Made by a program: the position numbers and the translations under genes | Shown here: in pieces, positions 7,489 through 54,089 of the stretch | Layout: the number at the start of each line of letters is the position of its first letter | How positions within the stretch are numbered: position 1 is the stretch's first letter | The notes under the pieces: generated by a model | Seen by the model: the letters and a program-made list of their open reading frames with translations, nothing else | Told to the model about the DNA's origin: nothing | Databases searched by the model: none | Assembly (NCBI RefSeq): GCF_033568475.1 | Contig: NW_027331831.1 | Coordinates: forward strand, 4,464,001 to 4,528,000 | Reading direction: 5' to 3' | Length of the DNA stretch: 64,000 nt | DNA from: Henckelia pumila | Taxonomy: Eukaryota; Streptophyta; Magnoliopsida; Lamiales; Gesneriaceae

Positions 7489-10400
7489 TTATATGTAACT
7501 AGCTTGCACAATTTTCTTAGCCAGATATTTTGATAAGAAATCGAAGCCATGAACATAAAGAGCTTCAATTTCTGCTTTGTGGCCACTCTGAACCATCATG
7601 GCTAGCTCTTCTTTGTATCTATCCTGTAAAACCAAGTACACCATTGATAAGCAAGGCGGCCGAAGATTTTTTTTTTTTTAAAAAAAAAGAAAAAAAAAAA
7701 GAGCATAATGGTAAGGATAGTTATAACATTTCGCATAACATCAGCACGGATAAGACTATAATGAGAGTTGTATATTGAAAGACAATTACATGAAGATGAT
7801 CTGGTTTAATGCGATAGTGTAAATTTACCAGTAAAATTTCTGAATTCGCCAAGCTTTTAGCTATTTGATGATCACGCGTCTTCAGTTGGATCAGTGATTC
7901 TTCAGGTACGAGTTGTTCGATATCATTCTTATGCAGTCCCAGCCACTTGATATTGCAAGCTAAATTACAGAGATTAAGTCGTTTTAGGCAGTGTTTGCAT
8001 GGCTTCAGGCATGAAGGGTTGTGACAGGTTAGAAGTAAGAACCATATCTGTATGCTTCTAAGCCCATTCCTATGCTTCCATGCTTGAAGGTGCATAGTAT
8101 TGCCAATCCTGCTGGATTCCTTCGTATTTAAAAATCAAAAGGTAAAGGAATTGTTAAATAACTCTGAATTATCAATAGAAATTACTCAGATTAGGACAGC
8201 AAATAAATGGAGGCACTAAATATTTTTGGGCTCAAAAAGGATTACATACATTCTAAATTTAGTTCATGGTATTGACAAATAGGATGGTTGAGTTAATGCT
8301 TTTTATTGCGACACGGTAAAACAAATTTGACTGGTTGTCAAATGATGAAGACGACAATACAGGGGATGCATCTCATTTATTTTTTAAATAATTTTAATTC
8401 TACATTAACATGTATTAAGTGATTACACACTTCTGTGGGTGCATGTGCAGTGTGTATTTGAAAAGTTATATGATAGAATTTTGGAAAACTCAAGCCCAAG
8501 GATCAGGTCTTTTTACAAGTCTGCAGAGATTGATGAAGATCATTCATACCAGTCAACCAAGCCTAGAATGGGTAGTTCTGAAAACTCTCGACTCATTCGA
8601 TGAAGCAACAACCTGCATGAAATTTTACAAATTATACATCATTAAGTGGTGTTCCCAAATCCCAACATGCAAAAAAACCTGTGCTAAACTGCCAAGTGAG
8701 TTTAATGAAGAAAGGGTCATGCCTTGTGGCAATATCTGGATATCCTTTGGCCGTAATGAGAATACATGGAATTTGATTGAATACCCGGTCCTCAGCTAGC
8801 CTCTGGAATATGGCATGCTGGACAATACTGATGTTTCATTGATTTGCCATAAAAGTAGCAGCAAGGGATTTTTTCAATAGTAAATAAGTAAAAACTAAAC
8901 GAGGAAACAAAAACCTTCTCAACCACAATGATGTATCTAGCATCACTCTTCATCATCAAATTCTCGAGAAAATTCAGGTCTCCAGAGATGGCATAACCAG
9001 AAGATCCACAGATCGAACAATCAACAATGTTTAGGTTTGGCTCCTTCTCCACAATTGAAAAAACATTCGTAAGACATAGTATGCTTCACTTGCAGACAAA
9101 AGTAGAGTGACATCAAGTTGTTTTATTCTACTTCAAGTTATACCAATTGTGGTTTTCCTTTTTCTAATAATAAAATCTAAGAGAGGGAAGCCGGTCGTAC
9201 AATTCTCACCATTATGAAATCATGGGAAATGATTGTGTGAAAAATGCACTATAAAATAAATTTATCCCGGAGTATTAAATCTTAGCAAATGATTGTTTGA
9301 AAAGAACACCATATGACAAGTTCAATCGACACAAAGTAGATTATTGAAAATTTTGGAGGCCGTAAAACTAACATAATCACGTCATTGATCCACTTCAACA
9401 ACAAAAATTCTAATCTTCTGTTGAAGGTGGCGAGTTAAAGATTAATGCCTGAAGTAATAGGCGGCCAGCAACCACTCCTCTACTGGATGCCATAATGCCA
9501 AGGCTATAGCGGCTACATCTAAGTAATGCCACCACATCTGTTTGCTTATCAAAGAAAGAACGCCACAACTTAGAAGCTCTACAGGCAGATAAAGGAAGAT
9601 AATTAAAACAAAATCAAGTTCAATCTGTCAAAGTATACTGTAAGCAAAGTAAAGCACAGGTGTTGCCATGACAGTTGCACCACATCTGTATTCTCTAACA
9701 TGTTACTGCTATCCCAGTTGATAAATGATTATAGAACCAATGCAGCTCCCAAAAAAAAACAAAAACAAATACAAAACTTGGACCTTGGATAGTCCGATTG
9801 ACCTGCAATTGAGAAGTAAAATACTCTGGTGAATCGGAGAGTAATTTATAAAATAATTCCCTTTGAGTCACTTTCTTTTCTTGGACCAGAATCTGATGGC
9901 ACATCACCATCACCTTCCACACTTCAAAAACCCAAAAGAACGTCAAATTAACATGAAAAGTGAATTCAACTACGAAACAAACCAAACCGAAAATCGCGAA
10001 CAATGGATACCTCTGATAAATGACTTAGCACTGCTTTCATTCATCAAAGACCGGGTGCAAAATGAACGCGAAAGAAAAATCGCCGAGGATTCAGTTAGCA
10101 ATCCTCGACTGGCTCTACAATTGCTCGACGATCTGTCTATCTGTCACAAACGAACCATAAAATCTTAAACATAAAAAAAAATTGCCATAACTTAGGAAAT
10201 GAACAGGCATTAATTTTACAAATCACAAACAAGAAGATCCAAAAATAAAAACCGAACCAGAGGTAAATCAGAGATCGATGGATTCGTTGAATTCAGATTC
10301 CTCAGGAAATTAAGGACGGCGACTTCAATCCTAGCTCGAACCTGAAAGCAAACCAACTAACAAATTAAGAATCACGGGAATCAAACCAAAAAATTACAAA

Positions 10401-15600: not shown

Positions 15601-18600
15601 TTCCTGTATAAATCTGAAACCGAAAATAAATTAAAGTCCTTGTGCTTTCCGATCCAACTAGGGGTCCGAAATTTTATCTAATCCCAGCACGCTTCCCGCG
15701 TGTCTTCCAAATTGTCAAAAATCCTCCGATTCCTTAACAGCCACACTGACCAACAAATACAACGAGCAACTACTGTCCAAAAAATTCTCTGCCCCTCCTA
15801 CCTTGATCATGCCCAATATCCGTTGCAAATAAGTCCTTCGTCGATCTCGGAGTCACTCAAACCAAACCCCAACTACCCCAAAGCTTTGAACCACAGATAG
15901 CTCGTAAAAGGACGATGAATAAAAAAGTGATCTTAAGTCTCCACCTCTTGCTGACATAACACGAACCAGTTCGGACATAAAGTCATGTGCAGGACCCATC
16001 AATTCAGGTTTGACCCGTCGTGCCAACCCGCCCCGCCATTAAAAAATGGCGGGTTGGGTCAAGCTTTTGCCGGCCCGTCAGGAGGCGGGCCGTTTGCTGG
16101 CCCATTTGGGCTGTGGGCCAAGCGGGGCGTGGCGGGCTGGCCCGCGGGTTGGCCCGCCAATATTTTTTTTGTTTTTTACATTTTAAAATTTATATTATAA
16201 TTAATATTTTAAATATTTTATGTATGATTGATAAGTATTAAACAATTTATATTGTTTCAAATATTTTATAAATGATTATAAGCTCTAAATGATTTATATG
16301 ATTTATGATAATTTATATTTAATTGATTATTTTTAAAATTTTATATTATTTATAAGGGTTATTTATAAGGGATAATAGCCAAAATAGTCCTGTAAATTTA
16401 CTTGTTTTGTAATTTGGTCATGTAAGTATTTAATTTTGAGTTTTGGTCCTGTAAATTTAGTTATATTTTGATTTTTAGTCCTTTTTCATTTAAGAAATAT
16501 TTTTATAATTGGACCGATGATCAAACCGATCTAACTTAAAAAAACAGTCCAATTGATTGGATTGTTTTAATCGGTCGATCGTATCGAAAAATCGTTTATA
16601 TAATATAATTAATAATATATTTTAAATTATAAAACCTAACAAATTTATATAAATAGAAAAAATATATATATTTATCGTAGTTTGAAAACTAAACTTTAAT
16701 ATTTATAAATATTAATCAATTTTAAAAAATAAAAAATATGTTAAAAAATTATAAACTCTAATATTAATAAATAATATTTCTAACGAGAAAAAAAATCAAA
16801 TAATCATGTATATATATAATAAAATATTAAATTAAGGTTTTAAATAAAAAACTAATTTTTTTTAAAAAATCGAAAAACCAATTTTTCAGTTCTTGATCAG
16901 TTCTGCCGGTTCAACCGTTAAAACGGTTTTTGGGAGTGTTTTGGATCAAATCAGTGACCGGTTCTGGGTCGAACTGGTTGAACCAGTTGGTACAGTCTGA
17001 TTTTGAAAACATAATATTTAAGGTTTTGAAAACATAACATTTAATTGTTGATATCACAATAGACACGTCATCATTTCTCAATGCTATTTAAGCATTTTTA
17101 GCTGTCACGTCAGCATTTTCTAATGTCACGTCAGTAATCTTCCTATGAAAAAAGGACTAAAATCCAATTATAACTTAACTTATAGGACCAAAACCTAAAA
17201 TTAAATACTTACAGGACCAAAACACAAAATAGGCAAACTTACAAGACCATTTTGACTATATTCCCTATTTATAATGATTTATTTATTGTTAATGAGTTTT
17301 AAATATGTATATCATTTATAATTTTTTATGTATGATTTTTAAAACTTTTTTCATATATTTTTTTAATTTTTTGAATTTTTTAAAATTTATGGCGGGTTGG
17401 TCAGCCCAACCCGCAACCCATGACGGGTTGGGTTGGGTTGGTGGATTCCCAACCCGCCATCAATTCGGACCGGCCCGCCCCGCCCGATGGCAGGCCGAGG
17501 TGGGGCGGGGCGGCCCGAATTGACAGGTCTAGTCATGTGGGCCACCTTCTTTGCAGCATCTCACAAGTTGGTAACTTCCCCATTATAAGTATCCACGAGA
17601 ACGCTTGGACTTTGTATGAGACTGGTGATTTCCAGATAACGTGATAAAGAAGAAAGTGGGAAGACCACCAACAGGGAAGAAAGACTCGTTGAAGGATTTA
17701 ACTGAAAATATCCCAAAGAGTCCAAAACCCATTTTCTAACATCTTCAGCTCCTTCAATCAAGCTTATCCTCTCTAAAGCTCCTAGCAACCACTCAAAGCG
17801 CTCACTTCCTCATCCCTCAAATCTCTTGGCAAACGTAAATTTCAAGAAATAAAGGCAGATATGGAGGAGTTATCAAAATGAACAAAATAGGAAATCAATT
17901 TATTCTGCGCTGTTGAAATCTGAAATAAAGATGGAAAAAGATCCTAGAAAGCTGGTTCCCTCCAGCACCTGTCCTGGTCTTACAAGTTACAAATCAATTA
18001 TAACAAACATCACAAAAGTCAACAAATCAGAAGTTGTAAATGGTACAGCATATCAGATAAAATTCAGCGGTCAAACTGGAACGTAGACCAATTCGGTAGT
18101 GGTCAGGTAACGTGAGATAAATTCAGTATCCATGGGGTCACAATGGGATTAGAGTAGAGAAATTTTACTTGTGCATTAAACTATCACACAACTTCAAAAA
18201 TAAAAAAGGCAGTCTTTGTAATCACATTTGTCAGTAAGTGCAACTTCTTTACTTGAAACTTACCTGAATATGTTTGCATGAATATCCTTTGACAGGAGTT
18301 TTAATTCGCTTGAAGCTGTTCAATATTAAAAGGGGTGTAAGAAATCAGCAGTTAAAAAGGTTCAGCTACTCAAACAGGGTTGGTAAAAAGGCCAGCTAAA
18401 AGACTGAAGGAAAATGTGAAAACAGAATTGAAGTCAAAATCCAAATTCTAGAACCGATATGAGCACCACAGATCAATACCGTTGAGTATATACATCTCAT
18501 AATGTTTTCAATGATTGGTGGCGTTGTGATCAGATATCACAATGATCTTTTACTTTGTCACAATGAATAAATACTAATGAAAGAATGAGGGGCCCAGTAA

Positions 18601-29640: not shown

Positions 29641-30226
29641 CAGTGTTATTAAAATCGGACCGGACCGACCGGTTCGATCGGTTCGACCGGGAACCGGTCG
29701 TCGGTCCGGTCCGGAACTTCATTAGGAACCGGAAAACCGGTCCAACCGGTCAGAACCGGTCAAAATCGGTCAATAACCGGAAAAACGGTTCAACCGATTG
29801 AACCGGTTTTTCGAATTTTATTTATTTTTTTTTGAAAATTTGAATTTTTTATTTTAAAAACTTTAAATTTAATATATTTTTATATATATACATGATTATT
29901 TGGAATTTGTACTTCATTAAAAAATTATTTTAATAATTATTTATTTTTTAAAAATTAAATAATTAATTATTTAAATAATTTAAAACTATAATTGACATTT
30001 TGAATATATTTACATATTTATTTAGCTTTCAAACTATGACAAATATATATATTTTTTGTCTATTTATATATATTTTTGAGTTTTTAAAATTCAAAATATA
30101 TTATTTATTAGATTATATTATATAAACGGTTTTCCGGTTCGACCGTCCGGTTAAAACGGTCCGACCGGTTGGACCATTTTTTTTAGATAGACCGGTTCGA
30201 TCACCGGTCCGGTTATAAAAACACTG
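29641..30226. mobile_element. non-autonomous hAT element (586 bp) with CCGGTT subterminal arrays
   Basis: Ends CAGTGTTATTAAAA and, inverted, CAGTGTTTTTATAA. Flanked by GTAAATAC and GTAAATAA (8 bp, 7 matching). Both ends carry many copies of ACCGGT/CCGGTTCGACCGG, likely transposase-binding repeats by analogy with other hAT elements. The AT-rich centre has no coding frame. Confidence 0.82.
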
Positions 30227-52726: not shown

Positions 52727-52734
52727 CTTTTATA
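52727..52734 (-). promoter_or_regulatory. TATA box of the MAKR2-like gene
   Basis: TATAAAAG on the minus strand, about 100 bp upstream of the ATG at 52626, in a normal plant core-promoter position. Confidence 0.6.
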
Positions 52735-52768
52735 GCAAATTTATGTACGTATTTTATTTTATTTTATT

Positions 52769-53257
52769 ATATATATATATATAGAGAGTTCTTTTATGAT
52801 GCCCAACTCCATGTCCACCATGTACAATATGTGAGTTGACCAACACAATTGATGAGTTGACTTATCACATATTGTACATGGTGGGCATGGAGTTGGGCAT
52901 ATAGAGTTGGGCACCATAAAAAAACTCTATATATATATATATAGAGTTTTTTTATGGTGCCCAACTCTATATGCCCAACTCCATGCCCACCATGTACAAT
53001 AGATGAGTTGACCGGTATAATAGATGAGTTGACTTGTACATGGTGGGCATGAAGTGAGCATATAGTGTTGGGCACCATAAAAGAACTCTATATATATATA
53101 TATATATATATATAGAATTTCTTTCAAGTGCCGACCTACCATGCCCACCACCATGTGGCACTATTCTATTGGACCTACAATTTATCACATCTTTATCACA
53201 TCCAATAGAATAGTGCCACATCATTGGTGGGCATGGTAGGTGGGCACTTGAAAAAAA

Positions 53258-53307
<50 letters not shown>

Positions 53308-53603
53308 TTTTGTCATGCTGCCCACTTTCATGCCCACCTATGAGGTGTCAATCATCCAATGGATGAGATGAATCATATACAAATGATTCATCCAATGAAT
53401 GAGTGCCACATCATAGGTGGGCATGGAGGTGGGCAGCATATCAAAACTCTATATATATATATATATATGAGAAAAGGAAGTTGATATTTACACTCAATTT
53501 TTTGTTATTTGCACTCCACTTGTGAGTAAATTGGACACATATTTTACACATGAAGTGGAGTGTAGATAACACAAAATGGAGTGTAAATATCAACTCTCAT
53601 ATG
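52769..53603. repeat. array of five (TA)n-separated fold-back units (Micron-like)
   Basis: Five palindromic units of about 135-150 bp: roughly 52783-52929, 52942-53090, 53113-53262, 53302-53451 and 53467-53603, separated by (TA)n tracts. Units 1-4 begin TATAGAG(A)TT or TATAGAATT and end with the inverse. All four carry ATG(C/T)CCACC near each arm, but have different centres: GTGAGTTGACC (1, 2), CTATTCTATTGG (3) and CATCCAATGGATGAG (4). Unit 5 has unrelated arms (GTTGATATTTACACTC). Flanking TA tracts recall rice Micron elements. Each unit is close to fully self-complementary, with no coding frame. Confidence 0.88.
52870..53001. repeat. perfect 132-bp palindrome
   Basis: The right arm of unit 1, the (TA)n tract and the left arm of unit 2 form an uninterrupted perfect inverted repeat centred at 52935/52936. 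I checked this base by base: 66 bp per arm, outer ends TATTGTACATGG and CCATGTACAATA. The pairing breaks at 52869/53002. Confidence 0.95.
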
Positions 53604-54089
53604 AAAAATGGTAAGACTGCATCTCTCGTGAGACGATCTAACAGACCGTGACAAGTCAGTCCTAATCATATTTATAATAAAAAAAGTGATATTTTTGGTA
53701 AAAATTCATGTGAAACGGTCTCAAGGGTTATTTTTTTGAGGCGTGTCTCATATATGAGTTATCCTTTAAAAAATATTACATTTTATGCCAAAAATATTAC
53801 TTATTATTATAAATACGAGTATGGTTGATCCGTCTCACGGATGAGACCGTCTCGCATGAGTGTTATTTGATATTTTTATGGGTAATCCAAAAAAGAGATC
53901 AGTTTCACAAAATTAACACATGAGACCATCTCACAAGAGTTTTTGCTAAAAACGTATAAGTCAATTTCATGAGACCGATCTATTCTTATTTTTATGGTGA
54001 AAGTATCACATCTTATTATAAAATATGAGGAGAGTTGACACTTTTCATGAATAAAGATACATGAAATTGTATCAGGGATTTACTATATA
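53604..54089. repeat. fold-back repeat rich in GAGACGGTCTC-like motifs
   Basis: Contains CTCGTGAGACGATCT, GTGAAACGGTCTCAAGG, CGTCTCACGGATGAGACCGTC and further GAGACC(A/G) copies in both orientations, alternating with TTTTTGGTAAAA-like AT stretches. This is a common asterid-type dispersed repeat. Probably two or three overlapping copies; ends were not resolved. Confidence 0.6.

Follow-up and report, generated by a model that had tools for sequence, protein, structure and literature searches.

Four hairpins threaded on TA tracts and followed by a fifth hairpin occupy positions 52768-53607 of the window, the whole stretch of 64,000 nucleotides analysed here, close to the candidate promoter of a minus-strand open reading frame. 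The locus raises the question of how such an array was assembled, and whether its units belong to a wider family with a preference for TA repeats. The array was therefore analysed by measurement of its units and their folding, by searches of the window's own plant genome (885 Mb), and by comparison with systems described in other plants. In the reading preferred here, to which a probability of about 0.9 is assigned, units 1-4 are foldback MULE MITEs that prefer (TA)n and have built up the array stepwise, and unit 5 is an independent MITE of Mutator type.

Layout of the array and folding of its units

The positions of the hairpins, of the tracts between them and of the neighbouring gene are collected in Table 1.

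Table 1. Features of the hairpin array and of the neighbouring gene, in window coordinates.
Feature	Position	Strand	Remark
ORF, 357 aa	51553-52626	-	called MAKR2 in the earlier note
TATAAAAG, candidate TATA box of the 357-aa ORF	52727-52734	-	from sequence only
(TA)8 tract	52768-52783		leftmost tract of the array; TATAAAAG of the minus-strand gene lies 33 bp away
Unit 1, hairpin MITE, 144 nt	52784-52927		left arm lacks 14 nt found in the right arm
(TA)8 tract, spacer of units 1 and 2	52928-52943
Unit 2, hairpin MITE, 145 nt	52944-53088		subfamily common to unit 1
(TA)13 tract, spacer of units 2 and 3	53089-53114
Unit 3, hairpin MITE, 146 nt	53115-53260		second core type
(TA)22 tract, spacer of units 3 and 4	53261-53304
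Unit 4, hairpin MITE, 145 nt	53305-53449		third core type
(TA)9 tract, adjoining unit 4 on the right	53450-53467
Unit 5, hairpin MITE, 123 nt, different family	53476-53598		many other copies end in GGGAGTTGATATTTACACTCC
ATATGAAAA, probable target-site duplication on the right of unit 5	53599-53607		judged by eye

The earlier note had described five palindromes of nearly equal length, each bounded by TA tracts, with four different cores among the first four. Regarding length and boundaries, the description holds for units 1-4, which measure 144-146 nt and stand between TA tracts, and fails for unit 5, which measures 123 nt, represents another repeat family and is bounded by TA on the left only, with ATATGAAAA and then ordinary sequence to its right. 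The count of cores has to be lowered from four to three, since units 1 and 2, which agree at 88% over 65 nt when aligned in register, form one subfamily. Units 3 and 4 differ in their cores and have related ends. Moreover, the motif assigned to all of units 1-4 is not found as such in the left arm of unit 1, which reads ATGTCCACC rather than ATGCCCACC. The left flank of unit 5 (53465-53475) reads ATATGAGAAAA, one GA step longer than the right-flank ATATGAAAA, and the two flanks would be consistent with a duplication of 9 bp to which one GA was added.

Terminal inverted repeats are present in all five units, with an arm identity of 85-92% over aligned positions, and all of the units fold as hairpins. 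Folding energies of -82.6 to -93.7 kcal/mol were obtained for units 1-4, compared with means of -30.5 to -38.7 for 100 dinucleotide-preserving shuffles per unit, and the corresponding z values were -14.8 to -17.1 for units 1-4 and -12.0 for unit 5. It should be noted that strong folds are not specific to the array. Within the whole window, 37 of the 2554 segments of 150 nt that were scanned reached -60 or lower, and the strongest such fold outside the array (-98.4) is located in G+C-rich repeats. The stretches at 15976-16160, 17384-17523 and 29650-29810 were weighed as possible additional members and discarded, being G+C-rich and having edges without a TA tract; the TA tract nearest to these G+C-rich strong folds is a (TA)5 at 29881.

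A further palindrome can be observed at 52865-53006, where the right arm of unit 1, the TA tract and the left arm of unit 2 together form arms of 72 nt that are 97% identical. Both of these arms carry the less common GAGTTTTTTTATGG, found at 2 sampled ends compared with 11 for GAGTTCTTTTATGG.

Regarding the neighbouring gene, a distance of about 35 bp between the array and the TATA box had been estimated, in good agreement with the 33 bp measured from TATAAAAG upstream to the start of the first TA tract. The name MAKR2 was not confirmed, as a Pfam search of the 357-aa ORF returned no family. A paralogue on C4, near 19.296 Mb, matches in its coding parts, while its promoter does not align and gives no empty site for the array; the stretch fetched around it, upstream side included, lacks any TA tract of at least 4.

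Genome-wide copies and their target sites

The terminal sequences of units 1-4 belong to a family that is present throughout the genome. The terminal pattern TATAGAGTTN{4,10}TGCCCA was matched 1089 times genome-wide (537 + 552), compared with 3 matches for the reversed control, and the end pattern GAGTTYTKYYAWSSTGCCCA, for which no TA is demanded, gave 982 exact matches compared with 0 for its reversed control. These ends prefer TA. The end directly follows TATATATA in 514 of the 982 matches and TATATAT, the other phase, in a further 169, so that a strict TA run directly precedes 683 of 982 ends, a raw share that is not scaled to the genome-wide base rate of TA tracts. A G or C occupies the seventh base before the end in 30 of the 982. 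The exact string TATAGAGATGCCCACC had no match genome-wide, because in the copies that were read its two motifs stand apart from each other.

A sample of 39 loci was assembled for closer reading, consisting of the 26 independent loci among the first 30 matches of TATAGAGTTN{4,10}TGCCCA (the other 4 were dropped as the opposite end of a unit already counted) and the 13 next in list order. Five loci picked for their clustered appearance (L033-L037) and two stretches around L014 were left out; L033 falls within the list order, and omission of the seven slightly lowers the grouped share. Hairpins between TA tracts were called at 34 of the 39 sampled matches, where the pattern itself demands TATA before the end and only the opposite TA tract therefore serves as an independent test. 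The script had counted 35 of 39. At L014, however, the hairpin called by the script belongs to a neighbour, while the match itself is half a unit, so that this locus was not counted; no such hairpin was called at L024, L046, L047 and L049. Copies also stand in groups, which contain 9 of the 39 sampled matches (8 pairs and 1 triple). The run of four units plus unit 5 in the window is longer than any of these groups.

Close copies of each unit were found among the fetched loci. The best match of unit 1 is 98.5% identical over 133 nt (L033) and that of unit 2 is 95.3% over 149 nt (L041), while unit 3 is matched at 94.8% over 153 nt by both L008 and L030, and unit 4 at 94.7% over 113 nt (L019) and 93.3% over 135 nt (L010). 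The earlier note had proposed related mobile units that target TA microsatellites, and had looked to the recurrence of their cores on (TA)n elsewhere in the genome for a decision. The proposal is borne out: the unit types recur, the units 1-4 group stands mostly on TA as counted above, and the copies outside TA carry duplications, as described below.

Units 1-4 of the window sit in TA, where a target-site duplication cannot be read, and duplications were scored on other copies. The set outside TA comprised 20 fetched regions, which cover 22 of the 30 GAGTTYTKYYAWSSTGCCCA ends with G or C seven bases before, and the opposite end was located for 17 copies. A duplication of 9-10 bp with at most one mismatch was found in 10 of these 17 copies of the units 1-4 group, compared with 1 of 272 cross-locus pairings, including one copy (L115) that adjoins another unit and could reflect tandem duplication. 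With a stricter duplication score of 8 or more, the counts were 7 of 17 and 0 of 272. Examples of the duplicated sequences are TTGGTTTATG, TTGCTTAAAT, CTTGTATAAA and TTGGAAACA. At the ten duplications, the element ends read GAGTT on one side and AACTC or AATTG on the other, with L111 one base off. Regarding the 7 of 17 copies without a clear duplication, four (L109, L112, L114 and L117) abut TA or another unit.

Stowaway and Tourist MITEs have a target-site duplication of TA or TWA, and the duplications of 9-10 bp in the copies outside TA speak against such an identity here. Duplications within the range of about 8-11 bp that characterizes Mutator-like elements were found in both the units 1-4 group and the unit 5 family, and duplications of the 9-10 bp type are described as a mark of the Mutator superfamily (PMC4486113, PMC5907723).

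The unit 5 family was scored at 40 places with at least 93% identity, the window copy included, out of 348 candidates. Exact 9-bp duplications were recognized by eye in at least 5 of 20 fetched copies (L081, L082, L084, L085 and L098). Several copies lie in ordinary AT-rich DNA with 9-bp duplications, and the family is not a strict TA-tract element; other fetched copies occupy TA tracts, including four with shared flanks. Unit 5 is read as a Mutator-type MITE of its own, which has a less strict, AT-rich target and inserted at the right edge of the array.

FAR1-type MULE relatives

At L014/L031, a transposase fragment is fused to half of a unit-3-type copy. The Pfam families PF03101 (FAR1, E 4.5e-19) and PF10551 (MULE, E 1.3e-22) were detected in this genomic fragment. 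The locus was rejected as an autonomous source of unit 3, since the transposase piece is joined to only half of a unit-3-type copy. The join apparently arose from a deletion that fused two neighbours in a TA array. In L031 (C1:45821000-45830900), the FAR1-MULE fragment and the right hairpin half of unit-3 type to which it is joined lie at about 7548-9521.

A genome search with this transposase fragment gave 119 scored matches of 578 candidates. A TA tract of at least 5 is present within 1.5 kb before the match at 18 of the 27 FAR1-MULE loci examined and absent at the other 9, and some of the 18 have their tract elsewhere than at an element end. Some FAR1-MULEs do end at TA: GAG follows directly after the tract in L053, L054, L056 and L068. 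L054 contains an uninterrupted frame of 747 aa and is flanked by (TA)21 and (TA)9. Its terminal repeats are alike over the 150 bp compared, and its ends read GAGATTTGATATTG, unlike those of units 1-4; the similarity of its ends to those of units 1-5 was not significant. The 3' ends of L054 and L068 were located in the stretches fetched, while those of L056 and L072 were not found there. As a side observation, L053 (C1:78648942) and L054 (C3:65247052), on two large contigs, have an identical terminal sequence over the 200 nt read and differ in their flanks, which suggests fairly recent movement of these copies.

The closest resemblance to the array was observed at L072, where a FAR1-MULE fragment with an in-frame stop adjoins a unit-1-type hairpin across (TA)13. 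In alignment with the ends of units 1 and 2, its terminal sequence reached a score of 51, compared with shuffle maxima of 32 and 31 (200 shuffles each), and it was the only one of the 12 FAR1-MULE ends compared with unit ends to stand clearly above its own shuffles. A second copy of this type, L130, located elsewhere, shows 97.5% identity over 399 nt, counted inward from a (TA)12 of its own. Three further relatives, L131-L133, showed no long TA tract in the fetched sequence. An intact transposase together with the exact ends of units 1-4 in one element was not found among the FAR1-MULE copies examined. A FAR1-MULE with a 5' end similar, not identical, to that of units 1 and 2 and with the same TA target is present in this genome.

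Origin of the array and its relation to described systems

Units 1-4 are very probably non-autonomous, foldback-type Mutator-like elements whose preferred insertion site is the (TA)n microsatellite, mobilized most likely by FAR1-type MULE transposases of their own genome. Each insertion would leave a copy between two TA tracts, both of which are still targets. It is plausible that each insertion supplied the TA tracts for the next in this way, with later copies landing beside earlier ones so that a non-nested array grew.

Several other origins were weighed. In the first, the units are of Mutator type, but homologous recombination of circular intermediates with microsatellite filler, rather than direct insertion by transposase, brings their copies into TA tracts. 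Such recombination has been proposed for SaTars, in which many guayule flanks misfit a 10-bp duplication and consist of diverse microsatellites (PMC5907723). Here, both TA phases adjoin the ends (514 and 169), and TA flanks cannot by their nature reveal a duplication, both of which are compatible with this route. The ordinary 9-10 bp duplications in copies outside TA nevertheless speak against it, since they indicate that transposase insertion occurs in the units 1-4 family; a mixture of 9- and 10-bp duplications could, moreover, yield both TA phases on its own. Recombination as the origin of the TA-borne copies is held to be unlikely.

Growth of the array by local tandem or inverted duplication of a single ancestral unit draws on the palindrome that joins units 1 and 2 across their spacer. 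Elsewhere, three same-strand unit ends at C1:125219509, 125219666 and 125219823 are exactly 157 bp apart, which suggests that a unit was duplicated in tandem together with its TA tract at that locus. Within the window, however, every end of units 1-4 finds its best match outside the array among the fetched loci compared, and separate insertion is supported for this reason. The right arm of unit 1, for example, is 98.6% identical to the ends of L033 and L039 and only 94.4% identical to the left arm of unit 2. Local duplication of one unit is therefore a poor candidate for the array as a whole.

The strong hairpins adjoin a candidate TATA box, and they might instead constitute a regulatory or miRNA-like feature of the promoter for which a transposon origin is secondary. 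Like ends are nevertheless present hundreds of times across the genome, and an Rfam scan of the window returned no family at the gathering score. Furthermore, the transcript of the gene need not contain the array, which is positioned upstream of the promoter. This functional interpretation is considered very improbable, slightly more so than local duplication. Long TA tracts are prone to error in assemblies, and chance or an assembly artefact of TA-rich DNA might be suspected on that ground, yet z values of -12 to -17 per unit and close copies at many unlinked places reduce its likelihood to almost nothing.

The units match elements described in other plants. MuTAnT of Medicago truncatula is described as a foldback MULE on TA repeats, with 9-bp duplications in copies outside TA and a related putative autonomous partner, AutoMuTAnT, that resembles Jittery (PMC4486113), and the elements studied here likewise have a foldback form, stand on TA repeats and carry duplications of 9-10 bp outside TA, with FAR1-MULEs as candidate relatives. 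They differ by description in that the first MuTAnT element measures 292 bp and has GGGG/CCCC end stretches, compared with 144-146 bp and GAGTT-type ends here (PMC4486113). SaTars, reported from guayule, rice, sorghum and citrus, are (TA)n-flanked non-autonomous MULEs that form mixed, non-nested arrays on microsatellites, mostly TA, by which they are joined; several families have members outside TA with 9-10 bp duplications, autonomous TA-flanked MULEs are known in guayule and rice, and a cluster of eight elements has been published for sorghum (PMC5907723). The guayule families, of 380-1120 bp in Table 2 of that source, are set apart by description from the units of 123-146 bp found here (PMC5907723). 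The Ac-mMITEs of pineapple are likewise Mutator MITEs that prefer TA, with two families sharing ends and duplications of 9 or 10 bp outside TA (PMC8449440). No autonomous partner is reported for these elements in pineapple, whereas candidate FAR1-MULE relatives are present in this genome (PMC8449440). Insertion into (TA)n is further described for Micron of rice and TAFT of maize, to which the present units can be likened by description. Fifteen families resident in TA stretches are reported for carrot (PMC8227079), and in a survey covering 207 plant genomes Micron is given the rank of a superfamily, with most of its occurrences in Poaceae and Rosaceae (PMC12550479).

The present family shares with SaTars, MuTAnT and Ac-mMITEs the flanking of most copies by (TA)n, as is the case for 683 of 982 ends, and with SaTars and Ac-mMITEs the mixed, non-nested arrays joined by microsatellites, of which the window array is an example. 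The self-complementary cores and the mixed array, which the earlier note had regarded as unusual, have thus both been published (PMC4486113, PMC5907723, PMC8449440). In view of the published MuTAnT, SaTar and Ac-mMITE arrays, the window array belongs to a type already described and is ordinary in kind, reflecting a known habit of Mutator-type plant transposons. That the system is still mobile, with a TA-targeting transposase from the FAR1-type MULEs found here and an ongoing growth of arrays at TA tracts beside promoters that alters the expression of genes like the neighbouring one, is rather doubtful, marginally more so than recombination.

The interest of this genome lies elsewhere. The route by which MULE MITEs reach TA microsatellites, through a site-preferring transposase or through recombination, is left open in the published accounts (PMC5907723, PMC8227079). 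Here, many foldback copies inside and outside TA occur together with TA-flanked FAR1-MULEs, one of which has an open frame, so that both models of insertion could be compared directly in a single genome, even though the array alone is of a described kind. Regarding the extent of grouping, 9 of the 39 sampled matches stand in groups here, while 46.1% of 21,994 full-length copies of the TA-preferring MITEs of pineapple lie in adjacent, non-nested clusters, a figure obtained by a different method (PMC8449440).
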